The notes under the pieces: model-generated | Told to the model about the DNA's origin: nothing | Database searches by the model: none | Seen by the model: only the letters and a program-made list of their open reading frames with translations | In this document: positions 737 through 62,499 of the stretch, piece after piece | How positions within the stretch are numbered: the first letter of the stretch is position 1 | Layout: each line of letters begins with the position of its first letter | NCBI RefSeq assembly: GCF_011382985.1 | Contig: NZ_CP049933.1 | Span: 2,170,001-2,234,000 of the forward strand | Length of the DNA stretch: 64,000 nucleotides | From: Leucobacter coleopterorum | GTDB taxonomy: Bacteria > Actinomycetota > Actinomycetes > Actinomycetales > Microbacteriaceae | Direction of reading: 5' to 3' | Made by a program: the position numbers and the translations under genes

Positions 737-1223
737 CTCGCCCCTTTCCGAGCCTCAACAACTCACTCATCTGCGCGGTGACGGTAGCGCCCACATGGTT
801 GATGTCACAGAGAAGCCGGTGACTAAGCGCACAGCACGCGCTGAGGCCACCCTGGTCACTCGCGCTGATGTTGTAGAGCTGCTGGTCTCGGGCGAACTCC
901 CCAAGGGCGAAGCCCTCGGCACCGCACGGATCGCGGGAATCATGGCGGCCAAGCGCACCTCAGAGCTGATTCCACTCTGTCACCCGCTGCCGCTCACAAA
1001 ACTCGCCATCGATTTTGAGCCACTGGGTGACCGTGTGCGAGTCATCGCAACCGTCACCACCCGCGGGCTCACCGGAGTCGAGATGGAAGCGCTGACGGCC
1101 GCGAGCATTACTGCGCTGACCCTCTACGACATGATTAAGGCGGTCGACAAACACGCTACCGTTACAGACACGCGTGTGATCGCAAAATCGGGTGGCAAAA
1201 GCGGCGATTGGTCGGTGGAATGA
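729..1223 (+). CDS. moaC: Cyclic pyranopterin monophosphate synthase MoaC
   Basis: MoaC converts 3',8-cyclo-7,8-dihydro-GTP, the product of MoaA, to cyclic pyranopterin monophosphate. The protein has 164 residues, the usual family length. It carries MVDVTEK near the N-terminus, the active-site stretch [13 protein letters not shown], and the helix [11 protein letters not shown]...[13 protein letters not shown] with the conserved acidic residues and lysines. The ATG at 729 is preceded by a strong GGAGG ribosome site at about 719-725 and overlaps the moeA stop. The reading frame extends upstream inside moeA, but that part does not resemble MoaC. Its stop overlaps the mogA start as ATGA, which suggests coupled translation. 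Confidence 0.96.
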
Positions 1224-1701
1224 CGCGGCGCGCGGTCGTCATCGTTGCTTCTACCCGCGCCGCCGCTGGCCAGGCAGAGGATCGAACGGGTCCCCTCATT
1301 CGCGAGTGGCTCGCGGCCCGCGGATTCGAGGCCGCTGCGCCCCTTGTTGTCGCCGATGGTGCCCCAGTTGGTAACGCAGCGCGCAAGGCTTTGAGTTCCC
1401 GGCCAGCGGTCATCATTTCGACCGGGGCACTGGTATCTCGTCGAGCGACCAAACGCCTGAACAACTCACACCCCTACTCGATGTGCAGCTTACCGGCATC
1501 ATCGAGGAGATCCGCCGCCAGGGCACTTCCGCGGTTCCCACCGCGATCCTCACTCGCGGTGTTGCTGGCTTCTCGGGAGATACCTTCATTGTGACGCTGC
1601 CAGGCTCCCCGGGTGGGGTTCGCGACGGCCTTGCGGTGCTTGATGGTGTGCTGGAGCATCTGCTCGGGCAGCGCCTAGGATCAGCGCGCGGAAACCACTA
1701 G
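1220..1701 (+). CDS. mogA: Molybdopterin adenylyltransferase MogA/MoaB family (frame broken at 1424-1427)
   Basis: This family adenylylates molybdopterin before MoeA inserts the metal. The ATG at 1220 overlaps the moaC stop as ATGA. The first part reads [16 protein letters not shown] up to the IISTG stretch. The frame is then lost at the GGGG run 1424-1427. Adding one G restores [17 protein letters not shown], the conserved GGTG binding loop, and joins the second part ([30 protein letters not shown]) into a 160-residue protein of normal length. The break is therefore more likely a sequencing undercall than a true pseudogene. It is the third gene of the moeA-moaC-mogA operon. Confidence 0.88.
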
Positions 1702-1713
1702 CGCTCTTTCGTT

Positions 1714-2040
1714 TCAGGAAACACCTTTTTTCGAAATCGCACGCACGTCGTCTTCAAGATTATTCACTTGCTTCTCCAGGCGCCCGAACCGCCGATCAAC
1801 CTCGTCAAAGCGTGAATCTACGACATCAAAACGCGCATCCATCACGTCGAAACGGGCGTCAATAAGATCAAACCTAGATTCCATCGCGTCGCATCTTGAC
1901 CCCACCGATTTGAACTCAGAGGCGACGGCATCAAACTTTGCTGAGATCGTTCGGTTAAATGACTGTGTAACGAAGGTCAGGAGCCCGATCATGGTCGCAC
2001 CGAACACCCCGATCAAGGTCCACACTTGAGGCTCATTCAT
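1714..2040 (-). CDS. Small membrane-anchored coiled-coil protein, function unknown
   Basis: The protein has 108 residues if translation starts at the ATG at 2040 (MNEPQVWTLIG); an in-frame ATG lies 18 bases upstream. Residues of about 5-25 form one hydrophobic segment. The rest is a continuous coiled coil built from near-identical heptads such as SRFDLID, ARFDVMD, ARFDVVD, SRFDEVD and RRFGRLE, which repeat about every 21 bases in the DNA. I recall similar short N-terminally anchored repeat proteins in Microbacteriaceae, but no function is known to me. It stands alone, convergent with mogA, so the neighbours give no clue. Repeat number could vary between strains. Confidence 0.7.
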   Translation of the reverse strand: MNEPQVWTLIGVFGATMIGLLTFVTQSFNRTISAKFDAVASEFKSVGSRCDAMESRFDLIDARFDVMDARFDVVDSRFDEVDRRFGRLEKQVNNLEDDVRAISKKGVS

Positions 2041-2189
2041 TGTGATCATGCCTTTCATTCTGACTGATTTCAGTCAAGAATTCCAGAGCTAAACCACTGA
2101 TCAAGCCACAAAAACTCAATCTGTGGATAAGCCGCGTGATTCTTCAAAAATGGGGGCTTGTTAGCGAAGTTCAACTCGCAAGAAGGCTG

Positions 2190-4333: not shown

Positions 4334-5196
4334 GTGAGATTTGCGCACTTAATCAGCTCCCAGGTAATTCCCCCGAACTTGTTGTGGTTCGGGGGATCGA
4401 TTCATCCCTGTCAGCAGCCTCGGTGTGATCGCAAGCTCGCTGCAGCAATTTATTGAGGCGGGTTCGGAGGCGCAGGATCGTGTGCGCACCGCCCTCGCGG
4501 AGCTTCCTAAAGACGCAGGGAAACCTCTCGACGGCACCAGCTTTGGCCCAGCTATTATCAATCCCCCATCGTGCTGGCAGTCGGCCTCAACTACGACGAA
4601 CACGCGAGTGAGCTCAACCTCGATAACGACTCGGGGCCCGTACTGTTCTCTCTGTTTCCCAACTCTCTCAACGCACACAACGCCGAGGTACCGATCCCAA
4701 CCCACCTCAGCGAAGAAGTGGACTACGAGGGCGAACTCGGCGTCGTCATCGGTAAGGCTGCAAAGAATGTCTCAGCCGAGGACGCTCTCGATTATGTGTT
4801 CGGATACACCGTGATCAACGACATCACGGCGCGCAACATCCAGTTCCAAGAGCCGCAGTGGTCACGCTGCAAATCGTTCGATGGCTTCACACCGGTCGGA
4901 CCGGTGGTCGTGACCGCGGATCAGGTCCCAGATCCTCAGGACCTGCACCTCACGACAGATGTGGATGGGCTTCGCGTACAGGATTCCTCGACCGGGTTTA
5001 TGATCCGCACCGTGGCTCAACTCATCGCCTCGATCTCGCAGTCACTCACACTGCTTCCCGGCACCGTTATCTCTACGGGTTCTCCGGGGGCGCTGGACGC
5101 TCACGTAAGCCCCCACTGTATCTTCGCCCTGGCACCGAGGTCACAGTCACGATCGAGAACATCGGCACGCTCACCTCGCACTGCGTACAGGCTTAG
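4334..5196 (+). CDS. Fumarylacetoacetate hydrolase (FAH) family protein, four frame breaks
   Basis: FAH-family enzymes are metal-dependent hydrolases, decarboxylases or isomerases of 2-oxo acids. The gene is read in fragments, but adding one base at each of four runs (C 4370-4374, G 4391-4395, C 4563-4567, G 5086-5090) gives one 288-residue protein. It runs RFAHLISSQVI, ELVVVRGDRFIPVSSL, VLAVGLNYDEHA, DYEGELGVVIGK, YTVINDITARN, KSFDGFTPVGP and LPGTVISTGSPGGAG. The conserved Glu of EGELGVVIG and the Asp of the NDIT region are metal ligands in this family. The GTG at 4334 has a GATACC box about 10 bases upstream and no separate ribosome site, so a leaderless mRNA is possible. The exact substrate is unknown. 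Confidence 0.82.
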
Positions 5197-9604: not shown

Positions 9605-11074
9605 TCACGGGTTGCGATCAGCTTCGCGCGCGGGATCGTCACCTTCGTCCTCACTTGCGATGCCATCAATCAGGATCACGCCGGTCGTCGCATCGGCAAC
9701 AGCCCCGTCTTGCGGAGCCGACTCCCCTGGCACCAGCAGTTCTTCGTCCCTTCGCAGCACAGAGATCGGCGCGGTGAGCGTTTCGGTCTGCTGAGCATGG
9801 TCATCGTCAACGCCGGGCCTCCCGACGTGCGTCACAGTGAACCGCAGGCCCTCATCACGATGGAAGCGCAATTGCCGCTCGACCAGCAGCCAGGTCATAC
9901 CGATTCCAAACGCGAGGAAGGCGGCTACGGCGCTGATCACAAGCGTGGATCGTGCGCCCAGTGTATCTGCAGCGGCCCCTACAAGTGGCGCACCGATGGG
10001 AGTGCCACCCATCAGTACGGCAACGTACAGTGCCAGCACCCTCCCACGAACGGTCGGGTCGGTTGTGGTCTGTACAAAGCCGTTTGCGGTCGTGAGCAGC
10101 GTTGAAATGGCGAACCCAAGAAAGATGAGCGTGAGCGCAAAAGTCCAGAACGTGGGCATCACAGCGGCGAACACGCTGACGGCACCGATCCCACCCGCCG
10201 CAATAATCACAACGCGCATGCGAGCCGCGGGGCGTTTTGCCACCAGCAGTGCACCCGTAAGCGATCCGATGGCAAGAATCGAAGAGAGCAATCCGTAGTC
10301 GCCCGCGCCCCGCCCAAACTCAACGGCCATCGTTGAAGACATCACTGGGAAGTTCATGCTGAACGTACCAAGCAGAAACACCATCACAAACACAACGATC
10401 ATGTCGTGTCGTGAACGTACGTATCGCAATCCAGCAGAAAGCTGCCGCAGCTGGGATTCACGCTGGTTTGCCTTGGGCGCTGACTTGGCCACCGTACGAA
10501 TGAGCAGCAGCGCACCGAGCACACCGAGAAACGAGACCGCGTTGATCATAAATACCCAACCGGATCCAACGACAGCAATCAGCACACCCGCGACAGCGGG
10601 ACCAACCAACCTGGCGGAGTTGAAGGATGCGGAGTTCAACGCAACCGCGTTGGAGAGGTTCGCGGGGCCCACGAGGTCAGATACAAACGCCTGTCGCGCG
10701 GTGGTGTCAAAGGCATTCACGATCCCAAGCCCCAGCGCAAACGCGTACAGGTGCCACAGCTCTGCCTGTCCGGTAACGAGCAGCACGCCGAGCCCCGCCG
10801 CAAACAGCATCAGCAGCGACTGAGTCACAAGCAACACGTGACGACGCTCGAAACGGTCCGCCACGGCCCCGCTAAAGGGCACAAGCAGCAGCTGCGGACC
10901 AAACTGCAGTGCCATCGTCACACCGACCGCCGAGGCGTTATGGGTGGTGAGCTCGGTCAACACGACCCCGTTTTGAGTGGTGGCCTGCATCCACGCGCCA
11001 ATGTTCGACACGAGCGCCCCGAAGAACCAGATGCGGTAGTTGCGTACGGCGAGCGAGCGGAACATGTTTGACAC
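9605..11074 (-). CDS. MFS transporter, enterobactin-exporter-like (MFS_3) type
   Basis: A cytoplasmic-membrane major facilitator of 489 residues. It starts SNMFRSLAVRNYRIWFFGALVSN, typical of the EntS-like group whose members export siderophores or drugs. About 12 hydrophobic segments are visible, and the loop motif GAVADRFERRHVLL sits between segments 2 and 3. The last 90 residues form a long, charged cytoplasmic tail ending in an acidic GIASEDEGDDP stretch. The GTG start at 11074 has GAGGAGG upstream. It is followed by aspA on the same strand after about 90 bases, but no functional link is apparent. The substrate cannot be predicted. Confidence 0.85.
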   Translation of the reverse strand: MSNMFRSLAVRNYRIWFFGALVSNIGAWMQATTQNGVVLTELTTHNASAVGVTMALQFGPQLLLVPFSGAVADRFERRHVLLVTQSLLMLFAAGLGVLLVTGQAELWHLYAFALGLGIVNAFDTTARQAFVSDLVGPANLSNAVALNSASFNSARLVGPAVAGVLIAVVGSGWVFMINAVSFLGVLGALLLIRTVAKSAPKANQRESQLRQLSAGLRYVRSRHDMIVVFVMVFLLGTFSMNFPVMSSTMAVEFGRGAGDYGLLSSILAIGSLTGALLVAKRPAARMRVVIIAAGGIGAVSVFAAVMPTFWTFALTLIFLGFAISTLLTTANGFVQTTTDPTVRGRVLALYVAVLMGGTPIGAPLVGAAADTLGARSTLVISAVAAFLAFGIGMTWLLVERQLRFHRDEGLRFTVTHVGRPGVDDDHAQQTETLTAPISVLRRDEELLVPGESAPQDGAVADATTGVILIDGIASEDEGDDPAREADRNP

Positions 11075-13925: not shown

Positions 13926-15214
13926 AAGAAACAATGCCCCTCTCCCCGATAGCTCGGCATTGCGGGAAGCACAGAGCCATCCGCGGTCAACGGTACGATC
14001 TCGGTTGTGTGCTCAAGAGGTTCCCCAGACTTGGTGTGACGCAACCAGACTCGGTCCCCCGGTTCAAGCTGCCGCGCAGCCTCGCCCTGCAGCGGGGTTT
14101 GCACTTCGCCAGCTCCCTCACGAGGCTCGTATTTCAGGCCTTCCGGCCACACCGGCAAGGGCAGTCGATCGGGCGCCGCCGGCCCAGAAGCGATCCACCC
14201 ACCACCGAGCAGCGTGGCGCGATCCCGCGTGGGTTTGCGCACCACATCGAGCGCAAACGCCATCGCCGGCGCGGGCGTAAACGTTGAGTAGTGGTCAAAA
14301 AGGTGCGGCCCAAAGAGACCGCTCCCAGCGGCGACTTCAGTCACGACGGACTCCGCGGCAGTGCGCTCGACTGATCCTGTGCCACCACCGTTCACAAACT
14401 CAAGCTCTGCAACCTCGCGCACTGCCGCGATGGCGGCCGCCCTACGCTCTGCAAGTTCTGCTCCGCTCGCCTTCTGGATTGTACGCAGCAGCGCTGCCTC
14501 GGCGGGCTTTCCTGCGGGCCGATCGCCCACTCCCGCGATCTGTGCTTCGTAGGCCATCACACCAACGAGTGTGAATCCCGCTCGCTGCTCGACCCGGGCA
14601 GCGAGGGCCTGCAGCTCGTGCGGTTGTCGAAGCGGCGAGCGTCTCACGCCAATGTGCCCGAACACCAGGTTGCGCCAGGAGGCATCGAGGTCGAGGCAGA
14701 CCCGAATTGCGTCTCGTTGTGCAGGTGGGATCGCAGCATCGATGAGGTCGAGCTGATCCTCGCTGTCGATCATCACGGTGACCCGTTGGCATGCCAGGGC
14801 GCTCTCCCCCAACCGCTGGATAGCGGCTCGATCCGCCGTCGGGTACCCGACCACAACATCGTCGATACTCTCGGCAAGCCACAGTGCCTCGGCAAGGGTG
14901 TAGGCAAGCACCCCACGAAATCCAGGTAACGCGAGCACCGCGTCGAGCACACCTCTCACGCGAACTGACTTGCTGGCAACGCGAATCGGGATCCCACCAG
15001 CGCGGCGCAGCAGGTCGTGTGCGTTGTGGTGCAGCGCCTCGACACTCAACGCGACGACGGGCGCGGATCGGGACTGCGTGGCCGCAGTAAATGCACCCCA
15101 GTAGCTCTCCGGGTTGAGCCAGGGCTGCTGTGCAGCCCGCGTTCGAAGGTCTACCGCTGTGAGGTCGAGCACCGCTTCGGGGTCATAGTCGAAGTGTAGA
15201 GCGCAGCCGCCCAC
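13922..15214 (-). CDS. PLP-dependent amino acid deaminase/aldolase, D-threonine aldolase-like (DSD1 fold)
   Basis: A fold-type III, alanine-racemase-like enzyme of 430 residues. The stretch IPIRVASKSVRVRGVL has the Schiff-base Lys (ASKS). It is followed by a TIM barrel with FTLVGVMAYEAQIAG and ELEFVNGGGTGSVE, and a C-terminal D-serine dehydratase-like beta domain ending PSYRGEGHCFL with the His-Cys pair that binds metal in this family. Such enzymes cleave or deaminate D-3-hydroxy amino acids. The start is a GTG at 15214. It overlaps the lactone oxidase gene by four bases. I recall this pairing from other actinobacteria. The substrate is not predictable. Confidence 0.85.
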   Translation of the reverse strand: MGGCALHFDYDPEAVLDLTAVDLRTRAAQQPWLNPESYWGAFTAATQSRSAPVVALSVEALHHNAHDLLRRAGGIPIRVASKSVRVRGVLDAVLALPGFRGVLAYTLAEALWLAESIDDVVVGYPTADRAAIQRLGESALACQRVTVMIDSEDQLDLIDAAIPPAQRDAIRVCLDLDASWRNLVFGHIGVRRSPLRQPHELQALAARVEQRAGFTLVGVMAYEAQIAGVGDRPAGKPAEAALLRTIQKASGAELAERRAAAIAAVREVAELEFVNGGGTGSVERTAAESVVTEVAAGSGLFGPHLFDHYSTFTPAPAMAFALDVVRKPTRDRATLLGGGWIASGPAAPDRLPLPVWPEGLKYEPREGAGEVQTPLQGEAARQLEPGDRVWLRHTKSGEPLEHTTEIVPLTADGSVLPAMPSYRGEGHCFL

Positions 15215-15261
15215 TATCGCTAGGGTTTCGTCGCCAGGGTGTTGTGCTCAGGCAGCGGCGA

Positions 15262-15996
15262 CTACACTCTGCGGCGCAGCGCATAACTCGCGGCACCAAC
15301 AGCGAGTGCGCACCACACAACAAGCACAAGCACACTTCGGCTCGTTACGCTGAAGTGCTGCGAGTCAAGTGTCGCTCGCATCAGGTCAGCCATTGGCTCA
15401 ATCGGCAACCACTCATGCACCGCTTGCAACCACTCCGGCATGCGTGAAGCGGGGTAGCTAATCGGCGAAAATAGCAGCACCACAAACACCAGAGTTTGTG
15501 AGATGAGCTGGGCAACCGTGGGTTTGGCAACCACGGCAAGGCCGTAGCCAATTGCGGCAGACGTGAGCGACACGAGCAACGCAGCAGGAATCACCCACGG
15601 AGTCACCGACAGCGTGATCCCGAACTGCCAAGCCCCGATCACAACACCAAGCACCATTCCGGGCAACGCAATGAGGGTCCACATTGAGAGATCAGCGACA
15701 AGAAACAGAATTCTAGGCACCGGCAGCGTGCGCATCCAGTCAAAGGTTCCCTCAATTTTTGACTGCGCGACCTGCTGCGGTGTCATCACGAGCCCCACCA
15801 TAATCAAGGTGACAGTCGGGGCTCCCGTGGCGAGAAACCGCCCCATCTCGGTCGTCACGTCGCCGATCAGCATTTTGTAACCAAGCACCGTGGTCATGGC
15901 AAGCAGGGCCTGCACCAATACCAGCAGAACCATCGAGTCTGAGTTGCGACGCAGTTGCCACTGCAGCAGCAGAGAGGTCTGACGAACGGGGTTCAT
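15262..15996 (-). CDS. ABC-2 type transporter permease
   Basis: A membrane component of an exporter, 244 residues with about six hydrophobic segments (for example VLVQALLAMTTVLGYKML and VLVVWCALAVGAASYAL). It contains the short KIEGTFDWMRTLP loop characteristic of ABC-2 permeases. The start overlaps the stop of the ATP-binding gene as ATGA, so the two subunits are co-translated. The pair lies under the palindromic operator at 16962-16979 and is divergent from a TetR gene, which suggests drug- or lipid-inducible export. The exported compound is unknown. Confidence 0.88.
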   Translation of the reverse strand: MNPVRQTSLLLQWQLRRNSDSMVLLVLVQALLAMTTVLGYKMLIGDVTTEMGRFLATGAPTVTLIMVGLVMTPQQVAQSKIEGTFDWMRTLPVPRILFLVADLSMWTLIALPGMVLGVVIGAWQFGITLSVTPWVIPAALLVSLTSAAIGYGLAVVAKPTVAQLISQTLVFVVLLFSPISYPASRMPEWLQAVHEWLPIEPMADLMRATLDSQHFSVTSRSVLVLVVWCALAVGAASYALRRRV

Positions 15997-16943
15997 GCTG
16001 TTGCTCCTTCTGCCTCGGTGTTTTCCGCACCAACCAGGCCGATGTAGATGTCTTCCAACGAGACGGGAGCGATCCCGTACCGCATCGCTTCGCCCGATTT
16101 GACGGTGGCCTCGGCCCAGCGAATAAGTTCATCGGCGGTCGAAGACGGGGCCGTGCCGACCCACCGCATCGCGTGATGGCGATGCGGTGTCACGACCCCC
16201 GGCCAATCTGGCTGGCGATCGATCATGTCAATCTCAAGTGTGAGGTGCCCTTCGAGGTCCGCCATCACTTCGCTTCGGGATCCCTCACGAATCACCTGCC
16301 CAGAGTCAAGAATGGCGACTCGGTCAACAACGTGCTCGGCCTCGCGCACGTTGTGCGTGACCAGCAACACCGCGGCGCCCTGATCGGCAAGCGCACGAAT
16401 CTGCGTCCACAGAAGCTGACGACGCACGGGGTCTACATCATTGGTTGGTTCGTCGAGCACCACAAGTTTGCTCGGGGCAACCGCGGCCATAGCGAAGGCC
16501 GTCAGCCGCGCGACACCACCCGAGATCTTCTGCGCGGGCACGTTTGCCCACGCACTCAAGTCGAGTGCGTCGATGAGTCGAGCGGTATTAGCCTCTGCTG
16601 CGGCTCGAGAAAGTCCGCGAATTCTGCCCACCTGAGAGATGGCACGCGCTGGTGTGAGTCCGGTGATCGGCACATTTGCCTGAGCCTGCACGCAGCTGAG
16701 CGCTCGGGCCTTGCTCGGGTTTGCAATGGCATCAACTCCCGAGAGGGTGATGCTGCCGGAATCGGGCTTCACAAGACCCACAATTTGATTCACGAGCGAG
16801 GTCTTGCCTGCGCCGTTGTGCCCAAGCAAACCAACGACCTCTCCCGCGGAGACCTCTAGGTTGACCCCTGCACTCGCAATCGCACCACGTTTGCCGGGGT
16901 ATCGCTTACAAAGCTCGCGTATTGACAGTATCGGATCGTGCAT
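15993..16943 (-). CDS. ABC transporter ATP-binding protein
   Basis: The nucleotide-binding subunit, 316 residues. The Walker A is GHNGAGKTS. The signature loop is degenerate (KISGGVARL in place of LSGGQ), and the Walker B reads LVVLDEPTNDVD. A C-terminal extension of about 90 residues follows, as in exporters of the ABC-2 class. The ATG at 16943 follows AAGGGG. Longer in-frame starts would run across the operator and into the divergent TetR gene and were rejected. It is the first gene of a two-gene operon with the permease, probably repressed by the TetR protein at 17041. Confidence 0.9.
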   Translation of the reverse strand: MHDPILSIRELCKRYPGKRGAIASAGVNLEVSAGEVVGLLGHNGAGKTSLVNQIVGLVKPDSGSITLSGVDAIANPSKARALSCVQAQANVPITGLTPARAISQVGRIRGLSRAAAEANTARLIDALDLSAWANVPAQKISGGVARLTAFAMAAVAPSKLVVLDEPTNDVDPVRRQLLWTQIRALADQGAAVLLVTHNVREAEHVVDRVAILDSGQVIREGSRSEVMADLEGHLTLEIDMIDRQPDWPGVVTPHRHHAMRWVGTAPSSTADELIRWAEATVKSGEAMRYGIAPVSLEDIYIGLVGAENTEAEGATA

Positions 16944-16961
16944 ATTGAACCCCTTAGCCAG

Positions 16962-16979
16962 ATATTCCGATCGGAATAT
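16962..16979. promoter_or_regulatory. Perfect 18-base palindrome between the ABC and TetR genes (TetR operator)
   Basis: ATATTCCGATCGGAATAT is fully self-complementary. It lies 19 bases before the ABC gene start and about 60 before the TetR start, in the only gap between the divergent genes. TetR-type repressors bind such palindromes next to their own genes, so autoregulation and repression of the exporter are likely. Confidence 0.8.
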
Positions 16980-17040
16980 ACCTAACGGTATCACATGCCA
17001 ACAGGTACGGAACTCCGTGTGGCAGCGTAGAATGCTCGAT

Positions 17041-18032: not shown

Positions 18033-18033
18033 G

Positions 18034-20064: not shown

Positions 20065-20174
20065 TGACGTTCTCCTCGGGTATGAACCTTGAGTGGTAAG
20101 AATCGGTGTCATATCCATTCTCGGCACTCCCGAAGCTGCAAGTTTACCGATTCGGGTGTAAATATTTTAGCTTT

Positions 20175-20189: not shown

Positions 20190-20192
20190 TTT

Positions 20193-38620: not shown

Positions 38621-38629
38621 GCATTTCTC

Positions 38630-40486: not shown

Positions 40487-40491
40487 TTTGC

Positions 40492-46767: not shown

Positions 46768-46965
46768 ATTTGAATCTCCTTGACGGGCTCTCGCCCAATG
46801 AGGGCGGCACAGCCGCCAGGATTGGTGTCTCGCACTTGCGTAGAAACGCAGCAAGATGGCCCGCTGAGGCGTTCCGTCCCGCGTCGATAACGGGCTCGAA
46901 GGCCCCTCGCCGAAGTACAGCTATTCATCTTACACGAGATACTGAAGAGTTCGAGAACATCGTCG

Positions 46966-47266
46966 GTGGAACAACTTACGGAGTTTGTCGCGGCTTCTCC
47001 TGAGCTCGGCGTCGAGAGCGGCTTGATGGATTCGATTGGGTGCGCATCACCGAGACACAGTTGTTTGGATTGCCGGTACGCGCGAGGTACCTCGCTATCG
47101 ATCCAGGTCTTGAGCACGGTGTGATGGTGGATCTCGCCAGCCGTGTTGATCCTCCGCCATTGGCAAACGGTGCTCCCCGTTGGGCATCAACCTTGAGCTC
47201 AACACGGACCCGACAGACCAGGCCGTGACAAGCAACCTCCCGACAACCCGTGAGGAAGCGAAATAG
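46966..47266 (+). CDS. Unrecognised 100-residue protein (two frame breaks)
   Basis: No single frame is open here, but adding one G at GGG 47038-47040 and one at GGG 47182-47184 yields a continuous protein. It reads EQLTEFVAASPELGVESGLMDSIG, VRITETQLFGLPVRARYLAID, LEHGVMVDLASRVDPPPLANG, and WGINLELNTDPTDQAVTSNLPTTREEAK before a stop at 47264-47266. Composition, regular secondary structure and the repair pattern seen across the window support coding. The GTG at 46966 is the first good start (GAGAA eight bases upstream); a GATACT box lies about 25 bases upstream. I recognise no family and cannot propose a function. It is divergent from rplY. Confidence 0.55.
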
Positions 47267-47348: not shown

Positions 47349-48663
47349 CTATACAGCGCCCGCTTCGGCGAGGCTGCCGATGCTCGGCCGCTCGACATCA
47401 CCCTGTTGCAGACGCTGAGCCAACTCATCAAGCGCTTCTCGGGTTCGCTGCGGCATTTCAAGCATCGCCCGTAAGCCGAGCCCGATCTCCGCGGCGGAGA
47501 CCTCATTGGGGCAAGAGCCAAACCAAATCCGAGTCGTTCAAGAGCTTCAGCCCCGCAAACTGATCCGTGGAAAAAGGCAGCACGATCAACGGCACTCCAA
47601 AGTGGAGCGCCTCCGTGACACTATTGTTGCCCCCGTGCGTGACGGCGAGCGCGGCGGACTCCAGCAATGTGACCTGGGGCAAGAACTCTTCGATAAGCCA
47701 GTGTGAGGGCAACTCTCCCAGCATTGCAAGATCGGCCGAGCCGTAAGCAATGGCCGCCCGCACGTTCGCTTCCTTCAACGCAGTCACGACCTTGGCGAGC
47801 ACATCTGCTCTCACCGAGAGAAAGCTTCCAAAACTGACGTACACAAAGGGCTCGTCGCTGGCCGACAGCCACTGAGTCACACGTGAATCCTTGCGGTCCG
47901 CGCGCACAGAGGAGCCAATAAAGGTGTGCGGCGGCAATAGGGCCAGGCGATCCCGCGACACCAGCTCTTTCGGGTAGTTAAACACCAGAAAATCTCCGTG
48001 TTCGGCAAAGGCGTCGTTTGATAGCGGCTTGCCGGGCGCGAGTTCTTCGAGCACGCGGTTCCATTCCGCGGTGAACGTTTGACTCGTTGCTTCTGTGAGT
48101 TTGCGTAGACCTTCGAGCTCCGCTGGGGTCGGTGAGAACGCGTTCGGCCACGCCGGTGGCAGTCCGTACACTTCCCCGGTTGCGGGAAGTGGGAGCGCAG
48201 TCGGGTGACCCAGTACGACGTCAACGTGCCGGATGTCTGCTGCCACAAGGGCCAGACGGGCACTGAACGCGAGGTGGTCAACAATGATGGTGTCTGGTTG
48301 CAGAGCTTCCACAATGGCCAGAACCTTCCGAGCGGTGGCAAGAGGCTCCCACATGAGATCGTTCATGCGGGCTTTCGCCTGGAAGGTCAGCGTCTCAATC
48401 ATGCCCTCACGGGTTGCGGCAAAGAAGCCGCGCAACGCTTCGTCCTCACCGCGTGGCTGTTCCTCGGCGCGAATCACACCGGGGTTTGATCCTTGGCTCA
48501 GCTGAAGACCAACGTGCTCAAACCCGAAAGATTCAACGATTGCCTGGGTGACGGATCCTGTCGCCACCACCACTCGCTCGTCTCGATCTCGCCAGCGGCT
48601 GCCGAGAGCCGCAAGAGGGTACAGGTGCGAGGCATAGTCGGGGCTGATAATCAAAAGCGTCAT
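47349..48663 (-). CDS. UGT/MGT-type glycosyltransferase (two frame breaks near the 3' end)
   Basis: A GT1-fold enzyme resembling macrolide and UDP-glucuronosyl transferases. It reads LLIISPDYASHLYPLAALG at the N-terminus and has the C-terminal nucleotide-sugar motif LAVTHGGNNSVTEALHFGVPLIVLPFSTDQFAG. The reading frame stops at 47503. Adding one C at the run 47508-47511 and one G near 47523-47524 continues it as DLGLALAPNEVSAAEIGLGLRAML and QRTREALDELAQRL to a stop at 47349, giving a typical 438 residues. The ATG overlaps the stop of the GT4 gene. Donor and acceptor are unknown; possible acceptors are a lipid, glycan or antibiotic. Confidence 0.82.
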
Positions 48664-50892
48664 GAGAAAACGTCCAGTTCTTGTTGAAGCGTCATGCTGT
48701 CGTGATGGGTGCCTGAGTACACTCCGACGAGAGCCTTGGCCATGGCTTCGACGGTGTAGCCCTGCTCTACAACACTGCGAGAACGTTGGGCGCGCTCATC
48801 GGTGCGCTCATCGGCGGCGCGGTCAAGGGCTTCACCAATCGCGTCACGGAGTTTCGAGGGCACCCAAGTGGAGGTGAGAAAGCCGGTGTGTCCGTGTTCA
48901 ACATAGGTTGCCGGGCCTCCGCCGTCAGGGGCAACGACCAGCAATCCGGCCGCCATGGCTTCGAGCACCGCAAGGCCAAATTCTTCTTTGAGGCTGCCGC
49001 ACACATAGACGCCGTTCGGGGCAACAAACCCAGGGAGTCCAAAGCGGGCGGCCGCGATCCAACGCGACACGACCCCGTTGGGTCGATGCCCCGACAGCAC
49101 GAGCCCCCGGCCATGCGCTGTTCCGGCTCAATGATCTGGTGGATCCGATCCAGCTGGTCTTGCTCGTCAATTGAAGGGCGTAGCAAGTTTCCCCCGATCA
49201 GAAGCAGGTTCGCGCGCTCGCGCAGTTCTGATCCGGCCCATGCTTCTACGATGCTGGCGGTTCCCTTGACCCGATGGAACCGACCGACACTCAACAGCAG
49301 TGGCAACCCACGCCGCTCGGGCGGGAGCCCTGCAACAGTTCACGAAGCTCGCTGAGCGCGGAGCTTGGAGTGCCGCCCTCGGAGAAGCGCCGCGCCTCGT
49401 TCACAGCCTCATCCGTCAGGGACAGATCGATTCCCTCTGGAACAGTGGTGTGTTTACCTGGCGCCTTCGCTACGTCGATGCCCATGAGATCCCGCATGTC
49501 GAACTGCAGGTTTGGCCTAGGGAAATAGACGGTGTGAGCCGAACTCGCCACGAGCCGTTGCAAGAGGTTCACTCTGAACCAAAAGTGCTCGGTTTCGTCA
49601 ACGGATCCAAAGTTTTCCCGGGTCAAGCGGCCCGAGAGATCCATGGTGTTGATGAGCACGTGAGGGTCGGGAGCCGAGGTAAAGACGACAGGAATGTTAC
49701 TCGCACGAGCGACTTCAAGCGCCGCCAAGCTGCCCACATCGGCCATGCGAAGGTGGATTACGTCCACCCGGCCCGCGGCCCGAATCATGCGAGCAATGCC
49801 TCTGCGCGCGGTCACCCTCAGCGGCCAGGCGTTTGCAGCCTGTACAGGATCTTGCAGCAGCGGGATGCGTGCATAGACGTGACCAGCAAGGCCCTTCCGC
49901 AACACTTCAAGGTTCTGCGCCGCCTCATGAATGTCACCTCTTGAGAGCGTCAGCACGCGCGTCACAGGAACCCGCTCGACTCCCCCGAGGCTCACCTCAT
50001 CTCCCAGGCGATCCGAGGTGCCAACGAGCGCGTCCCCCAGCCTCACCAACAGCGTCGCGATTCCGCCATTGTCTCCGTTCCCAGCGTTGCTCAGCTCGGG
50101 ATCAATGTCTGCGTGGAGAAACAGTTGCGCTATGGTCAGTCCTCCTCCAATCTTGGTGCCAGCAGGATCGACCGCGCCGCCCCCATCTGATGCGTTCGAG
50201 GCGATCACTGCGGCTTTGATATCTGCAAGCGCAAGCTTGGCCACCTCAGCGAGAACTCCGTCGAGTTGCGTGAGCTGTTCAAGCAGCGCACACTCTGTGG
50301 GCGCAGGCACTTGGTCTCCGAGCGCGGAGACCGCCGCCACACGCGCGAGAAGGCCTTCCCCAACGTCACCTGCAATGCGCGCAAGCTGAACCGCCACTGC
50401 GGAGCCCGGCACCAAACCGAGTGTTTCCACGAGTCGAAACCGCTGTGCTGGGTCAACGACCTCGGCCAGGGCGCTCTCAAGTCGGGCAGCGACTGTAGCT
50501 GGGGCCGCTTTCGCCCACTCCTCGAGGGTGCGTTGAGAAAGCATGCCAGTGAATCCGCCGGTAACCACCATATATATGAGAGGCCCGACAGCTTCAATGC
50601 GAGGCGCTCGAGATCCAAGTGCCCAGACTGAGTGCTCACGCACAAACCCCTGCTCGTGAGTGAGCATGCCCATCAATGCTTCGTCGACCTCTGGGTCAGG
50701 AATGCACGCAAGGGCATGGATCGCAGCAATCGCCATCACCTGATCGCTGGATTCGACCGTCTGCAACAGCACTGGAATGTCACTTACGCTTCCAGAGCGG
50801 GCCGCCGTCGCTGCGAGTTCGTCTGCGGAGCGAAGCGCTTCTAACAACCGATCGGCCTTGCGAACAGCTTCGAGACGGTTGCGAACGCGCAT
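48660..50892 (-). CDS. HEAT-repeat - GT4 glycosyltransferase fusion (two frame breaks)
   Basis: A 744-residue protein after repair. Residues of about 1-235 are helical HEAT/armadillo-like repeats (SSDQVMAIAAIHALACIPDPEVDEALMGML, HEQGFVREHSVWALGS). From about residue 250 it is a GT-B glycosyltransferase: GGLTIAQLFLHADIDPELS, VDVIHLRMADVGSLAALEVA, TTVPEGID, LPLLLSVGRFHRVKG, and the EFGLAVLEAMAAGLLVVAPDGGG donor motif. Breaks lie at GGG 49319-49321 (one C restores GSRPERRGLPLLLSVGRF on the minus strand) and CCCCC 49104-49108 (restores MAGGLVLSGHRPNG). It overlaps the UGT-type gene. The repeats may bind a protein acceptor or partner. Sugar and acceptor are unknown. Confidence 0.8.
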
Positions 50893-51053: not shown

Positions 51054-52423
51054 GTGAGTACTGCGCTGCGAGATCCACGCACCCCACGTCCCGAAGACGA
51101 GCGACTTCCTATCGGACGCACCCTGGGCTATGGCCTACAGCACGTGCTCACGATGTACGGTGGGATCATCGCGCCTCCACTCATCGTTGGCAGCGCGGCT
51201 GGGCTAAGTTCAGCAGAAATCGGAGCGCTCATTGCGAGCTGTCTCTTTGTCGGTGGACTCGCCACAATCTTGCAGACCGTGGGCATCCCGTTCTTTGGCA
51301 GCCAGCTCCCGCTCGTGCAGGGCACCTCGTTTGCTGCAGTCGCCACGATGGTCGCGATTCTCGAGAGCGATGGCGGTGATATCCAGCGTGTATTCGGAGC
51401 AGTGCTCGTGGCCTCGATCGTGGGGTTCTTGATCGCTCCAGTCTTCGCCCGAATCATTCGCTTTTTTCCGCCCGTGGTGACCGGCGTGGTCATCACCATG
51501 ATCGGGATCGCCCTCCTTCCCGTCGCCGCGAACTGGGCGATGGGCGGCAATGCATCCGCAAAAGAGTATGGAAGCCCGGTCAACATTGGCCTCGCGATGG
51601 CCACTCTTTGCTCTGCTCTGCTGCTCACCAGATTTGGATCGGTGGCAGTTCGACGACTGGCCATTCTGCTCAGTATGGCCTTCGGGACCCTCCTCGCGGC
51701 CCTTCTCGGCACTGCCGATTTCTCGAGAGTCGGGCAGGGGTCGTTCTTCGCGTTCCCCCAGCCACTGGCCTTTGGCTGGCCGGCGTTTGAAATCGGAAGC
51801 ATCATTTCCATGATCGTGGTGGTGCTCGTGATTCTTACGGAAACCACTGCTGACATTGTTGCGCTCGGCCAGATCGTCGGCACCAAGGTCAGCAAACGCC
51901 GGATCGCTGACGGCTTGCGAGCAGACATGGCCGCCAGCATCTTGGCCCGTTCCTCAACACATTTACGCAAAGCGCATTCGCTCAAAACGTCGGTCTCACC
52001 GCCATTACCGGCGTAAAGAGCAGGTTCGTTGTGACGGCAGGCGGCGGGATCCTGGTAGTTCTGGGACTGTTCCCCATTCTCGGTCAGGTGGTGGCCGCCC
52101 TGCCGACCCCGGTGTTGGGTGGGGCCGGGATCGTGCTCTTCGGTACCGTTGCCGCATCGGGCATACGCACGCTGAGCAAGATCGGTTACGAAGGAAACTT
52201 CAACCTGATCATCGTGTCTGTCTCAATTGCCGTTGGCAGTCTGCCAGTGGTTCGGCCAGACTTCTACGATGGGTTCCCGACTTGGTTCGCGACGATCTTC
52301 GATTCAGGCATCAGTTCAGCAGCACTGGCGGCTGTGGCGCTCAACCTCTTTTTCAATGAGCTCAGACTCACCCGCGCAAAGTCGAGAAACACGTCGGGCT
52401 CCCCCGCAGACATCTCCAGATAA
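51054..52423 (+). CDS. NCS2 family uracil/xanthine-type permease (frame broken at 51946-51948)
   Basis: A nucleobase symporter of 456 residues after repair, of the UraA/PbuX/UacT group and distinct from the AzgA-type permease at 2190. It has GYGLQHVLTMYGGIIAPPLIVG, VQGTSFAAVATMVAI, VTGVVITMIGIALLPVA and the substrate-site helix VVVLVILTETTADIVALG. The frame breaks at CCC 51946-51948. One C restores ASILAPFLNTFTQSAFAQNVGLTAITGVKSR and PVLGGAGIVLFGTVAASGI. The GTG at 51054 lacks a clear ribosome site. It is followed by an MFS gene after 38 bases. Substrate within purines or pyrimidines is not certain. Confidence 0.87.
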
Positions 52424-52461
52424 TCCGCGCGTCGGGCCGCCCGCGCCCATATACTCGTCTG

Positions 52462-53690
52462 ATGGGTATTTATCGTGAGCTGGGGCGAAATCCAGGCGTC
52501 TTTCGCGTACTTGTCTCGCAGCTGACCGCCCGTTTTCCCTTCGGGATGCTCTCGATCATTCTGCTGCTGCACATTCAACTCGCGTACGGAGACTACACCT
52601 CTGCCGGCATCGTGCTCGCAACACAGAGTGCAGGCCAGGCGATTTCGGGTCCAGTTGCCAGCAGGCTCATGGGCCGCTGGGGCATGCGCCCAGTTCTGAC
52701 ACTCACTGCGATCCTCTGTTCAGGGTTGCTTGTCACCATTGCAGTGGTGCACCTCCCCTCGTCATCGTCGCGGGTTTGGCCTTTCTCGTTGGCCTGACAA
52801 CACCGCCCGTCACCCCCGCAGTGCGCACGCTCTACCCGAAGCTCGTACCGGGCAATCAGCTCACTGCCCTCTTCTCACTCGACGCTGCCGCGCAAGAGCT
52901 CATCTGGGTCGTTGGCCCAGTCGTTGCGGTGCTCGTTTCTTCGCAGTTTGGCACCGTAGTAGGCCTTTGTGTCGCTGCGGCATTCATGCTGCTTGGTGGT
53001 GCCTGGTTCATTCTGAGCCCGTCAGTCGGCTCAGTAAAGATTCCCCGCTCGCGGCGAGGCCTCGGCGCGATTCTGCGGCGCCCAACCGTTATCATCTCCA
53101 CAACCATCGGGTTCTTCTTTGTTGCGTCATTCGCGGCGATTGAGGCGGGGATCGTCTCGGCGTTCACCCCTGCGGGTGAAGGTGCTGGGCACGGGAGCAT
53201 TGAGTCCGGGATCGTGCTCGCACTGTTTGCAGGCGGCTCCCTTGTGGGCGGATTACTCTTCGGTCACCGCCCTCTGCGCCCTTGGTCACTCCTACTCAGA
53301 ATTTCCATCGTTCTGATCGGTACCGTCCTGTGCCTCGTCAGTTTGAACATCTGGTGGCTCAGCGCCGTGCTGTTTTTGGGCGGGATCGGCACGGCCCCCA
53401 CTTTCGCTGCCGTTTCAAGCATGGTCAGCTCGACGGTGAAGTTCTCTGAGACCGCCGAAGCATTTGGTTGGATCGGAACCGGTCAGCTCGTAGGAGTTGC
53501 GGTTGGATCAGCGTTTGCCGGTGTCGCCATCGACGCAGCCGGAGCACACGGCGCGATCCTTGTCTCCGCCGGACTCTTACTCGTCTGCGTGATTGTTGCG
53601 GCCTGCACTATGCGCTGGGTGCCGGATCTCAAAGACGGTCACATCGAACCGCTGCCCGAGACCGGAACACTTTCGATCCCGCTCCCCTAA
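52462..53690 (+). CDS. MFS transporter (frame broken at 52755-52758)
   Basis: A major facilitator of 409 residues after repair. The first half reads VLVSQLTARFPFGMLSIILLLH, GDYTSAGIVLATQSAGQAISGP and RLMGRWGMRPVLTLTAIL. The break is at CCCC 52755-52758. One C restores VVHLPLVIVAGLAFLVGLTTPPVTPAVRTLYP and joins the second half (AAQELIWVVGPVVAVLVSSQFG, GGLLFGHRPLRPWSLLLRI). The sequence resembles the YcaD/SetA-like or drug-efflux type. It follows the NCS2 permease closely and may share its transcript. The substrate is unknown. Confidence 0.83.
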
Positions 53691-53742
53691 CGATTACACG
53701 TCATTTGGGGTGCGGGTCAGTGCCCCCAAATACAATGAGGCC

Positions 53743-54668
53743 ATGAAACGACACGGCTCCATCCTCGCGCTCATCGCCGCATGTTTACTCGTTCTGCCAC
53801 TCTCTGCGTGTGCCATGCCTCCCGGCACCGTGAGTGACACAGGGCCACAAATCCCGCGCCGGGGGCTGCGGCGGAGCCTGGCGCGTTGTCGGATGCTTCA
53901 CCGAAGATGACAGACGCCGCCACTGAATCGGGCCAGTCAATCATTCAGAACGGCGACCTCACGATTGTGGTGTCCGATCCAACGAAGGCTGCAGACAAGG
54001 TGACCACCGTCGCAGAAAAGCTTGGCGGTTACGTCGAGTCTCAGACAGTTTCGAAGGCGACAGGAAGCGAACCCGCTTCAGCTACGCTGAGCGTGCGGGT
54101 GCCGTCGGCGAAAGTCGATGAGGCGTTTGACGCACTCGCGGAGGTCGGAGACGTCACCTCACAGAACCGCAGTGCGACCGATGTGACGGCAGAACACGTT
54201 GATCTTAAGGCCCGTGTAGCCGCTCTCGAAGACTCGGTAACACGCCTCAAAGAACTCATGTCGGGTGCGGCAACAACCGGGGAGCTGATCGAGGCAGAAA
54301 CAGCACTCTCGCAGCGACAGCAAGAACTTGATGGACTCAAGGCCCAGCTGAAGGCACTCGAGGGCCAGGTCGACGAGGCAAGCATTTGGGTGAACCTCAC
54401 AACAGAAAGTGTGATCCCGGGCGGCCCCTCAAACTTCTGGGACGGGCTGCTTGCGGGCATTGCGTCGCTCGGTACTGCAGGCGCGGGGGCGCTGGTGGTG
54501 CTCGGGATCCTGATTCCTTGGCTTGTGCTCGGTGGCGTCATCGCGCTAATTGTGATCGCGATCGTGCGATCGAGGCACCGGGCAAAGGCGCGTCGCAGTG
54601 CGGCCCAGCCGACCGCGCCCCTGCAAGAACCGCTCGAAACCACCCCGACAGCAAATGAGGCACCCTAG
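53743..54668 (+). CDS. DUF4349 domain lipoprotein (frame broken at 53853-53855)
   Basis: A secreted membrane-anchored protein of 308 residues. The start MKRHGSILALIAACLLVLPLSAC is a lipoprotein signal ending in the lipobox LSAC. The frame breaks at CCC 53853-53855. One C restores QIPAPGAAAEPGALSDASPKM. The DUF4349 domain follows (NGDLTIVVSDPTKAADKVTTVAEKLGGYV, SVRVPSAKVDEAFDALAEVG), with a coiled coil (EDSVTRLKELMSGA, QELDGLKAQLKALE). It ends in a C-terminal membrane helix and a basic tail. The family function is unknown. It is upstream of the cyclase-family gene. Confidence 0.85.
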
Positions 54669-57714: not shown

Positions 57715-59621
57715 TTAGCGCTCCAGGAACGTCTGAGCAAAGAAGTCAGACAACTCCTGAGTCGCCGACAGCGGGAAGATGCCCGCGACGTAGTGGTCGG
57801 GGCGAACGACCACAACGGCACCGTCGCGACTCACACCGCGTTGCTCGAAGATGTCGTCATCAGCCTTTGCAGCGTAGATCTTTTCGTAGTCAACGAGCTG
57901 GAACGGGCCCGACAGCGGCAGGAACACCTTCGACACTTTCGAGATATCAACGGAGTGGTGATCCTGCTGGTACACGGCCTTCACATCGAACACTGAATCA
58001 ACGTCGGCACCGAGCGGTGTGAAGCGTTGCAGCGGCGAGTCCTTCGAACCGAGCATCCACTCGGCCCACTGATCCAGCGCCTCGCCACCCACATCTGCGA
58101 AGGCGTAGACACGATAGCGACCGTCTGCGCGGTGGTGGTGCCCAATGTGCACGTCGACCGCGTCAGAAACACGGGTTGTAATAACAGACTTGAAGCGCTT
58201 GCCGATCGGGAAGCCCGTTGCCAACTCCTGGTGAGCACCCGGTCGCGTCAGCATCGACTCCGTGTACTCAGTCATGAACCCGGCTGGGAACTCCGCCGTC
58301 TGCACGTAGAACTCTTCCAGCTGCTTGGGCGAGTCAAACTCCTCGGGCTTGCGCGCCATGAGTCCCGACCACTCGCGGTCGAAATCGATGAGGTTCTGCG
58401 CGGTCACGCGGCGCTCGTCCGAGTAGGTCCGCAGCAGTGACTCCGGACTGCGCCCCTCAAGCACATACCCGAGCTTCCAGCCGAGATTCCAACCGTCCTG
58501 CATTGACACGTTCATGCCCTGACCCGCCTTGGCACTGTGCGTGTGGCAGGCGTCGCCCATCAAAAAGACGCGTGGTTTGCCATCGGGCGACGTTGCGGCA
58601 TCGTCGAAACGGTTGGTGACACGATGGGCCACCTCGTACACACTGTGCCAGGGCACGTTGCGCACATCGAGGGTGTAGGGGTGCAGGATCGCGTTCGCCT
58701 GCTGAATGACCTCTTCGAGCGAGGTCTCACGCACCTTGCCACCGTCGTTCTCATCAACCTCACCAAGATCGACATAGATGCGGCAGAGGTGGTTGCCCTC
58801 GCGCGGGATGTGGAGGATACTGCCCGCCTCAGAGTGAATGATGCACTTCTTGCGAATATCGGGGAAATCTGTGACCGAGAGCACATCCATGACACCCCAC
58901 GCGTGGAAGGACTGGTCTCCCTCGAGCGCACCCCCGATTGAGTGACGCACGGCTGAGCGAGCACCGTCAGCGCCGATCACATACTTCGCCCGCACGGTGA
59001 TCTCTCCGGCGTCGCCGCCCCCCGCGGCACGCTCGGTGTTGATGCCAGCGCCACTGTAACCGGAGACCCGACGCAGTGTCACCTCGACGGGATACTCCCC
59101 TCGCCCGTCACGTTGAGCCCAACAAACTCGTAACCGTAGTCAACCTCGCCGCGCGCGGGTGAGTATCGCGCGTACTGCGCGAAGTAATCGATCACACGTG
59201 CCTGGTTCACAATCAGGTGAGGGAACTCACTAATCCCCGTCGGATCATCGGGTGTAACAGAACTGCGCACGATGTTTTCGGGCTGCGCGGGATCGGGGCT
59301 CCAGAAACAGGTCTCGGTGATCTGGTAAGCCTCTTTGATGATCTCTTCTGCGAAGCCAAATGCCTGGAACGTTTCCACACTGCGCGCCTGGATCCCGTCG
59401 GCCTGCCCCAGCACGAGACGACCGTCGCGGCGCTCAACAACGCGCGTTACAACGCTCGGAAACTGTGCCAACTGGGCCGCGGCCACAATACCTGCCGGAC
59501 CCGAACCGACGATGAGCACGTCAATCTCTGCGGGTAGGTCGCTCGGACGGTCAAGGCCTACGCCAGCGGCCGGTTCGATTCGGGGATCAGTTGACACGTA
59601 TCCGTGGTGGTGGAACTGCAT
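57715..59621 (-). CDS. FAD-dependent aromatic monooxygenase, phenol/3-hydroxybenzoate hydroxylase type (frame broken at 59097-59100)
   Basis: A single-component flavin hydroxylase of 635 residues, the length of 3-hydroxybenzoate 4-monooxygenase and phenol 2-monooxygenase. It has the FAD motif DVLIVGSGPAGIVAAAQLAQ, the GADGARSAVRHSIG motif and the FLMGDACHTHSAKAGQGMNVSMQD motif, then a C-terminal thioredoxin-like dimerisation domain. The frame breaks at CCCC 59097-59100. One base restores NVTGEGEYPVEVTLRRV. The ATG at 59621 follows AAGGAG. It is divergent from an IclR regulator, as in many aromatic catabolic operons. The exact phenolic substrate is unknown; no ring-cleavage gene is in view. 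Confidence 0.87.
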
Positions 59622-59676: not shown

Positions 59677-59752
59677 TCGCACACTCAGCATAAACGGCGG
59701 CGCGCGATCCCACAACACCCATTCTGCTCCTGGTATCGGGAAGAATAGTGAC

Positions 59753-60472
59753 ATGACCGAATCTCGCGCTGAGGGACAAGCCACCGCTGGCTCCCAGACG
59801 CTGTCCCGCGGACTCCAGGCCCTGGAACTACTCGCCGATGCGGAATCACCCATCTCAATCAGCGAGTTCGCAGAACGACTCGGGGTACATCGCTCAAACG
59901 CCTACAGGATCCTGCGCACCCTCGAGCAGCACCGCTTCGTTATTCGCGACAGCGCAGGTCTCATTCGCCTCGGCCCCAAAGTCACCGCACTCGCCCGTGG
60001 AGTTGCACCCGCGCTGCACACCGCCGCAATGCCCGCCGTCACTGAACTCGCCTATACAGTTGGCATGACGGCATTCCTCACCGTGCTCGATGCCAACGAG
60101 GTTGTCACACTCATGACCGTCGAACCGACCAACGTCGAGGCGACCATCGCACGCGACCCAGGCGTCAGCCACACGGTCGACCGCGGTGCTCCCGGGCGAG
60201 CCATCGAATCTTCACTGAGCGCCATCGAGCGCGAAACTCTGCTTGGCAGCCCTGAGTTCAGTGAAGCCGTGCTCAATACAAAACAGCAGGGCTACGCTGT
60301 AAGCCGCCACGAGGTGGTGAACGGTGTCAGCAGCGTGGCAGTCCCGATCCGCATTCCGGGCGAACCACCCGCGGCAATCGCGATCGTGCACTTCAACCTG
60401 CCGGATCCGCTCGACGAGGTCGTCGCCAAACTCAAAAACGCAGCCGAGCGGATCGCGCAAAACTACCGCTGA
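59753..60472 (+). CDS. IclR family regulator of the aromatic gene group
   Basis: A 239-residue regulator. The N-terminal winged helix TLSRGLQALELLADAESPISISEFAERLGVHRSNAYRILRTL precedes the effector domain (MTAFLTVLDANEVVTLMTVEP, GVSHTVDRGAPGRAIES, SRHEVVNGVSSVAVPI). The ATG at 59753 follows GGGAAGA and lies after the promoter region shared with the monooxygenase; longer in-frame starts extend into the divergent gene. It probably responds to an aromatic or hydroxy acid and controls the monooxygenase and perhaps the ThDP enzyme downstream. Confidence 0.9.
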   Translation: MTESRAEGQATAGSQTLSRGLQALELLADAESPISISEFAERLGVHRSNAYRILRTLEQHRFVIRDSAGLIRLGPKVTALARGVAPALHTAAMPAVTELAYTVGMTAFLTVLDANEVVTLMTVEPTNVEATIARDPGVSHTVDRGAPGRAIESSLSAIERETLLGSPEFSEAVLNTKQQGYAVSRHEVVNGVSSVAVPIRIPGEPPAAIAIVHFNLPDPLDEVVAKLKNAAERIAQNYR

Positions 60473-60644
60473 TATCTTTCACGTCAGTGACACGCTACCC
60501 GTAAGATGTAATCGTCCAGCACGGTCGGCTCTCGCCCGATCTGGCCGGCAAAGGCGCTCGAAAAAGGGGCGCTGCTGCTTGGGTAGTGAAACCCAGCGAG
60601 ACATACACGGATCCAAACCACTCTCATTCAATCAAGGACCTGTG

Positions 60645-62499
60645 ATGTCAGCACCATCAACCAGCACCCTCACCCACGCCGTCGCTCAAGCGCTTGCCCG
60701 GCACACCACGCACAGCTTCGGGCTCATGGGCAACGGCAACGCTCACCTTATCGAGCACTTCGCCGAGGTGGGCATTTCGTACACTGCCGTGCGCCACGAG
60801 GCCGGCACCGTTGCCGCAGCGGACGCCTTCACTCGCGTTTCGGGCCAGCTCGCCATTGCGACAACCACTTACGGCGCCGGATTCACCAACACGCTGACCG
60901 CCCTCGCCGAGGCGGCCCAAGCCCGCACTCCCATGCTGGTGGTGGTCGGTGAGGCACCCAGCGACGGCCCTCGCCCTGGGACGTTGACCAAGAGCTGCTC
61001 GCCGCGGCCATCGGGGTGCGCACCCACATGCTCTCTGTGACCAACATCGATCGCACGGTGGATCGTGCTGTGTCGTACGCGCTGCGCAGGCGGCGCCCGG
61101 TGGTGCTCGGCATCCCCTACGACCTCGTTTCCGCCGAGGTCGTGACCCCCGTCGTTACAACGGGTGCGATCAGCACGGCGGGATCAGGCGATGCCGGCAC
61201 ACAGGGCGGGATCGACCTCAACGACCCGGCCACCATGGCGGCGCTCAGCGCCTCGGTCGCAGATATTCCGAACCCGGTAGCACCTGCTGCCACGGCAACT
61301 CCTCGCACCCCACGCCCGTCTGGTGTGGCGGGCCACCAACTGAAATCCGCAATCACTGCACTCAAGGAGGCCGAGCGCCCGCTGATCCTCGCGGGTCGCG
61401 GTGCCCACATTTCCGGCGCGGCCGCTGAGTTGAATGAACTCGCAGACACCCTCGGTGCAGTCACCGCCACAACGGCCCTCGCGCGCGGCATCTTCTCTGC
61501 CGAGCAGTACGATCTGGGGATCACCGGCGGTTTTGGTCAGGATCGCGCAATGGCCGTGATCACAGAGGCTGACGTTGTGGTTGTTGTCGGTGCCAGCCTC
61601 AACCAGTTCACCATGCGCTTCGGTGAGCTATTTGGGCCGGGAACGACCGTCATTCGCATCGACGACGACCAGGTGAACCCACCGAAATCAAAAACTCCGA
61701 TCACCCATCTTCTGCTGCAGGGTGACGCGAAGGAGCTGCTGGGGTCGCTACTCGACCCGCTCACCGAATCAGACGTGGCGTCCAGCGGCTGGCGCGAGCG
61801 CGTAGCCGGCCTGGAACCCGGAGGCGCCCTGCGCACACGCAGCGACGGACTCGAGCAGCACCCGGACGGCCTCTGCACTGACGGCCGGCTCGATCCACGC
61901 AGTGTCGCCACCCGCATCGGCGAGCTTCTGCCTGCGGATCGCCACGTGACGACCGATGGCGGACACTTCATCGGCTGGGCCAACATGTACTGGCCGGTCA
62001 CATCACCCGAGCGCATGATCATGGTCGGCACCGCCTATCAGACCATCGGGCTCGGGTTTCCAACGGTTGCGGGCGTTGCTGCCGCGGCAGCCGGGACAAC
62101 CGTCGTGTTGAGCACGGGCGACGGTGGCGGGCTTATGGCGCTCGCGGATCTCGAAACCGCGATCCGCACGGCCCCAGCTGCGTGATCGTCGTCTGGAACG
62201 ACGGCGCCTACGGAGCCGAGGTACACCTCTACGGCGCGATGGGGCTCGACGAGACCCCCATGCTGATCCCCGACGTCGATTTTGCGGGCATGGCATCGGC
62301 GCTCGGCGCTCTCGGCATCACCGTGCGATCGCTTGCGGATCTCGACGCGCTCGAAGAGTGGGTGAGCTCAGGATCAAGCGGCACGATCCTGCTCGACTGC
62401 CGTGTCTCTCGCAGTGTTGTGGCCGAGTACCAGCGCGAGATTCAACGCGTCAACGGGGTCGAGGTCACCCTCGTCGAGACTGAATCCCCCGCCGACTAA
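60645..62499 (+). CDS. Thiamine diphosphate-dependent enzyme, acetolactate synthase-like (two frame breaks)
   Basis: A ThDP enzyme of 618 residues after repair. The N-terminal PYR domain has HSFGLMGNGNAHLIEHF, YTAVRHEAGTVAAADAFTRVSG (catalytic Glu) and IATTTYGAGFTNTLTALAEA. The middle domain has GRGAHISGAAAELNEL. The C-terminal PP domain has the GDGGGLMALADLETA Mg/ThDP motif and VIVVWNDGAYGAEVH. Breaks are at CCC 60974-60976 (repair gives PRPWDVDQELLAAAIGVRTHM) and CCCC 62172-62175 (RTAPSCVIVVWND). The ATG at 60645 follows AAGGA. It lies after the IclR gene and may decarboxylate a 2-oxo acid from aromatic degradation; biosynthetic IlvB is less likely without an ilvN gene. Confidence 0.83.

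Follow-up and report, generated by a model that had tools for sequence, protein, structure and literature searches.

We analyzed a 64,000-nucleotide stretch of the Leucobacter coleopterorum genome (positions 2170001 to 2234000 of contig C1; hereafter the window, in whose own coordinates features are given) in which many genes are interrupted by the loss of a single base. The initial annotation of this DNA had ascribed the breaks to homopolymer undercalling. Comparison with related genomes indicates that the broken genes are almost certainly consensus errors of a long-read assembly in which homopolymers of G or C (G/C) were undercounted, a known technical artefact, and that the genes are very probably intact in the bacterium itself. 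The earlier reading is widened in scale only, as the genome as sampled is affected and not the window alone.

Frame breaks in the window and across the genome

The L. coleopterorum genome (G000) is a single contig of 3,215,551 bases with a completeness of 89.59 and a contamination of 4.25; in the genus, 13 further genomes assembled as single contigs have a completeness of 98 to 100. Among named records, its Mfd protein most resembles those of Leucobacter. Its nearest relative, G051 (Mfd protein identity, 96%; DNA identity, 84%), shares synteny over most of the window. Window breaks were located by frameshift-aware alignment of G051 proteins against the window DNA, with G016, G053, L150 to L154, and L156 as extra relatives. 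Six further regions of the genome (200 kb) were processed as the window was, for a total of 264 kb sampled out of 3.2 Mb. Reference open reading frames (ORFs) were picked by alignment score; a choice based only on length admitted shadow ORFs with many false stops. Genes were retained at a coverage of at least 0.9 and a score of at least 3.3 per residue, and 10 residues were cut from each gene end. This filter kept 39 genes in the window, where 6 of 45 picked rows were dropped, and 203 of 222 genes in all seven regions, which amount to 213,368 coding bases.

The 39 window genes showed 16 −1 events, distributed over 12 genes, one +1 event, and zero in-frame stops. Each of ten sites at which a missing base had been proposed lies at most 12 bases from an independently found −1 break (1424, 4358, 4390, 4569, 5087, ∼17503, 18576, 20880, 38170, and 45685). 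Nine of them were recovered with G051 proteins and the tenth, in the gene annotated as TetR, with relative L156. Further breaks lie beyond the filtered count: the FAH event at 4358, trimmed because it falls at residue 9; two in a short gene, left out because the alignment spans just 54% of the relative's ORF; one in the TetR gene; and two in the GT4 gene. The class V aminotransferase, DUF1177, UGT, and NCS2 genes are counted from Pfam profiles that end early or continue in another frame. Altogether, of the 19 genes that the initial annotation had listed as broken, 18 are supported by alignments or Pfam pieces, at 25 or more sites, with a double-GNAT gene as the doubtful case. The accompanying claim that every missing base is a G or C is unreadable site by site, as the gap column holds an A or a T of the relative for 34 of 83 events over all regions, but it is supported statistically by the matched-run test described below.

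Over the seven regions, the 203 genes contained 77 −1, 10 +1, and 3 +2 events, and 61 genes (∼30%) carried a −1. In-frame stops numbered 11 in this set. The window had 0.36 −1 events per kb and the other regions had 0.10 to 0.55, a spread in which heterogeneity was not detectable (p = 0.24); extrapolated to the whole genome, these rates would give about a thousand such losses. Outside the window, the genes for NAD kinase, an HSP90-family protein, and LeuC (leuC) were broken; the rpoB and nucS frames are open. Amino acid identity was 92.1% for broken genes and 92.6% for intact ones (0.921 versus 0.926).

Dependence on G/C run length, a split pth, and an apparent loss in a tRNA gene

The losses depend on the length and base of the run. 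We compared the length of runs flanked on both sides by three conserved bases with that of their counterparts in G051. The proportion of G/C runs that were shorter in L. coleopterorum was 2/1380 at length three, 4/291 at four, 17/62 at five, and 5/7 at six; for A/T runs, it was 1/590, 0/81, 0/27, and 0/9 at these lengths. For runs of at least five, the contrast was 22/69 versus 0/36 (p = 2.8e-5), and it persisted when two (p = 1.6e-5) or four (p = 5e-4) flanking bases were required. Run lengths relative to a close relative had been put forward as a check by the initial annotation, and its expectation was borne out: a share of the G/C runs is short in L. coleopterorum, and no A/T run of at least four was. 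With L. coleopterorum taken as the ruler, runs of four were longer in G051 in 17/305 cases and shorter in 1/305; for runs of five, the counts were 5/49 and 0/49.

The frame breaks themselves follow the same runs. Nearly all events (82/83) lie at most 6 bases from a G/C run of at least three, and 59/83 are near one of at least four, versus ∼38% and ∼12% of random coding positions; A/T runs near events are at background level. The effect is indifferent to strand, with C runs short at 17 of 57 and G runs at 12 of 43, and we rejected slippage linked to strand or replication, as C and G runs are affected alike. Nor is it rarer in noncoding sequence, with short runs at 22/86 inside genes and 7/14 elsewhere.

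One of the losses appears to lie in an RNA gene. In tRNA-Leu(UAA) (18033 to 18107, minus strand), the 5′ acceptor arm lacks one C that four relatives have, and a C run of 5 faces a G run of 6. The corresponding C/G runs are 6/6, with matching arms, in G016 and G053, and 6/5 in G051 and G024, where the opposite arm is the short one. The gene is still recognized as a tRNA despite the unpaired acceptor stem. Paired tRNA acceptor arms (18033 to 18107) may act as a built-in ruler for undercalls. Peptidyl-tRNA hydrolase and NAD kinase are normally essential. The pth gene (45426 to 46048, minus strand) was reported as broken, and we confirmed that the sole pth match in the genome is split over two frames by a −1 near 45685.

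Affected genes, neighboring features, and comparison genomes

In the first part of the window, the mogA/moaB-like molybdenum cofactor gene (1208 to 1698, plus strand) has a −1 near 1424 and aligns end to end with G051 at 78% identity. The fumarylacetoacetate hydrolase (FAH) family gene (4334 to 5193, plus) has four −1 breaks (∼4358, 4390, 4569, and 5087) and is broken relative to G016 too; both genes are named from the relative's intact copy. The gene called TetR (17041 to 17879, plus) has a −1 near 17503 when aligned with L156 (312 amino acids, 55% identity, coverage 0.99). Its family name is that of the initial annotation, because no Pfam family matched its two short pieces. An ABC transporter pair plus regulator (15206 to 17895) separates genes that are direct neighbors in G051; within the genus, G016 has the closest copy found, but in another location. 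The pckA (GTP) gene (18233 to 20118, minus) has a −1 near 18576, and the adjacent RamB-like regulator (20106 to 21661, plus), a tentative name, has one near 20880 that is also seen relative to G016 and G053.

Farther along, the Pfam profile match of the class V aminotransferase ORF (29992 to 31341, plus) ends at position 312 of 371, and the DUF1177 ORF (31812 to 32867, plus) covers only profile positions 109 to 269 of 272. The prpE gene, of the propionate-CoA ligase family (36645 to 38674, minus), has a −1 near 38170, and the RamA-like regulator (38632 to 39592, plus) has two, near 38704 and 39096. In the double-GNAT gene (40474 to 41783, plus), a −1 is possible near 40543, ahead of the first domain: both acetyltransferase domains are whole in a 434-amino-acid ORF, and ∼13 N-terminal residues alone resemble the relative in another frame. 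The short gene (46921 to 47209, plus), the 100-residue gene of the initial annotation, consists of three consecutive pieces in three frames, with breaks near 47023 and 47175. In the UGT-type glycosyltransferase ORF (47503 to 48663, minus), the Pfam match ends at 375 of 499. The GT4 gene (48705 to 50892, minus), a single ORF of 707 to 756 amino acids in four relatives (L150 to L153), has −1 breaks near 49110 and 49330; against a fifth relative, L154, the event at the first break place is instead a +2. The NCS2 permease (51054 to 52423, plus) matches profile positions 3 to 283 in one ORF and 313 to 386 in the next. A pool of other loci gave no added break resolution for 27.5 to 34.7 kb or 46.8 to 52.6 kb. 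The remaining affected genes are an MFS transporter (52441 to 53687, plus; −1 near 52753), a DUF4349 gene (53596 to 54650, plus; −1 near 53845), a phenol 2-monooxygenase family gene (57718 to 59621, minus; −1 near 59102), and a gene for an acetolactate synthase-like thiamine-diphosphate enzyme (60630 to 62496, plus; −1 near 60972 and 62171).

Another MFS transporter (9605 to 11074) has an uninterrupted frame in the window but is represented by two ORFs in G051, so the G051 assembly probably has its own error there. Reciprocal controls, which are noisy as they were run without the shadow-ORF filter, gave zero events when G053 (27.5 kb) or G024 (19.2 kb) was the target of G051 proteins. With G051 as the target, we counted 2 −1, 3 +1, and 3 +2 events against G016 (30.8 kb); 4 −1, 1 +1, and 1 +2 against G053 (24.4 kb); and 7 −1 and 6 +1 against the window ORFs (46.3 kb). 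With G016 as the target, there were 6 −1 events against G051 (31.7 kb) and 14 −1, 9 +1, 3 +2, and 1 −2 against G053 (46.9 kb). G016 and G051 may therefore carry some errors too.

Searches with mfd brought up several unusual records. One Microbacterium ginsengisoli contig holds two mfd loci in opposite orientation (L072 and L074), as though the assembly were duplicated or palindromic, and Mycetocola lacteus has two scaffolds with mfd at identical coordinates (L014 and L016), which suggests a duplicated scaffold. Records labeled Planococcus (L050) and Acidobacteria (L030) carry a Microbacterium-type mfd, 64% identical to the query, as in the surrounding Microbacterium records, and probably represent contamination or mislabeling. 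A plasmid search yielded distant gene matches only.

Technical and biological explanations

We infer a technical cause for these breaks. Consensus undercounting of G/C homopolymers would explain the direction of the events, the base involved, the length dependence, the strand symmetry, and the spread over the genome. The base caller or the consensus step would undercount G/C homopolymers and spare A/T runs, dropping one base from ∼1% of G/C runs at length four, from roughly one in four at length five, and from the majority of the small number at length six; each loss within a gene would shift the frame, making ∼30% of genes appear broken. The undercalling proposed for the window is further supported by the similar rate elsewhere, the insensitivity to strand and coding status, the apparent involvement of a tRNA and the split in the sole pth, and the equal conservation of broken and intact genes.

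Several observations weigh against this explanation. The same 203 genes also show the 10 +1 and 3 +2 events and the 11 in-frame stops. Some of these probably reflect noise in the alignments, shadow ORFs that overlap, or true lesions, and some real frameshifts may be hidden among the artefacts. The G/C run spectrum is depleted at length six (3 to 4 versus 8 per 100 kb in G051) but undepleted at five. The 23S rRNA is uninformative: the single C loss relative to G051 is also present in G016, and the copies within G051 and within G024 differ among themselves in G/C runs. Finally, the yardsticks are imperfect, as G051 is not error-free, judging from its split MFS gene, and G016 has −1 events of its own.

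The best biological rival is real gene decay, with G/C runs contracting by slippage; a possible reason is that actinobacteria have NucS, which provides no small-indel repair, instead of MutSL. In Mycobacterium smegmatis, NucS is described as leaving indels of 1 to 2 bases unrepaired (PMC11551767), and homopolymer slippage would be less checked in bacteria that rely on it; the intact NucS frame of L. coleopterorum fits this idea. NucS was, however, also found in the three relatives searched and therefore does not set this genome apart. We consider decay very unlikely, because it would have to account for essential genes being hit (the split pth and the broken NAD kinase gene), for broken genes conserved as well as intact ones, with none of the relaxation of selection that decay implies, and for unaffected A/T runs. 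An excess of losses over gains of 77 to 10 and the involvement of ∼30% of the tested genes also speak against it. Even more improbable would be a recently arisen lineage with a true genome-wide contraction of G/C runs of at least five, in which many essential genes are decoded nonetheless or are mixed in the population. Programmed or tolerated frameshifting, with the ribosome restoring the frame, deserves practically no credence. The breaks do sit at runs, where ribosomes can slip, but the reference relatives keep one continuous frame rather than a conserved frame break, the rate is set by run length alone across unrelated genes, and losses also fall outside genes (7/14 runs) and, it appears, in a tRNA, where ribosomes do not read.

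For a consensus artefact, PacBio sequencing without short-read polishing is a more likely source than nanopore sequencing, because G/C runs alone are affected and A/T runs are spared. For actinobacteria, PacBio consensus sequences are described as tending to lack a G or C within homopolymers (PMC4849082). The present case resembles those omissions in that one G or C is missing from G/C homopolymers and frames are shifted in high-GC genes, whereas the published case concerns gene clusters for natural products, with Sanger or Illumina sequencing as the control, and the platform here is deduced from the run pattern. A nanopore origin of the same artefact is nevertheless a reasonable, if less favored, possibility: C/G runs are reported to be called worse than A/T runs, with lengths above four the worst in high-GC bacteria (PMC8486125). 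Nanopore reads shorten A/T runs too, however, and none was short here among 81 runs of four and 36 of five or six, a small sample. The Kastor paper describes a nanopore Pseudomonas assembly with 23.3% pseudogenes before correction and a completeness of 92.2% (PMC12007338); homopolymer-linked deletions raise pseudogene counts and lower completeness there as they would here, but unlike in that assembly, A/T runs are spared in L. coleopterorum.

The near-certain consensus undercounting of G/C homopolymers calls for caution in using this L. coleopterorum assembly. Automated annotation would call ∼30% of the tested genes broken, including pth, pckA, and the NAD kinase gene, and claims of lost pathways, pseudogenes, or low completeness drawn from it would be wrong. 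Comparing the length of G/C runs with that in a syntenic relative is a fast way to check such assemblies without reads.

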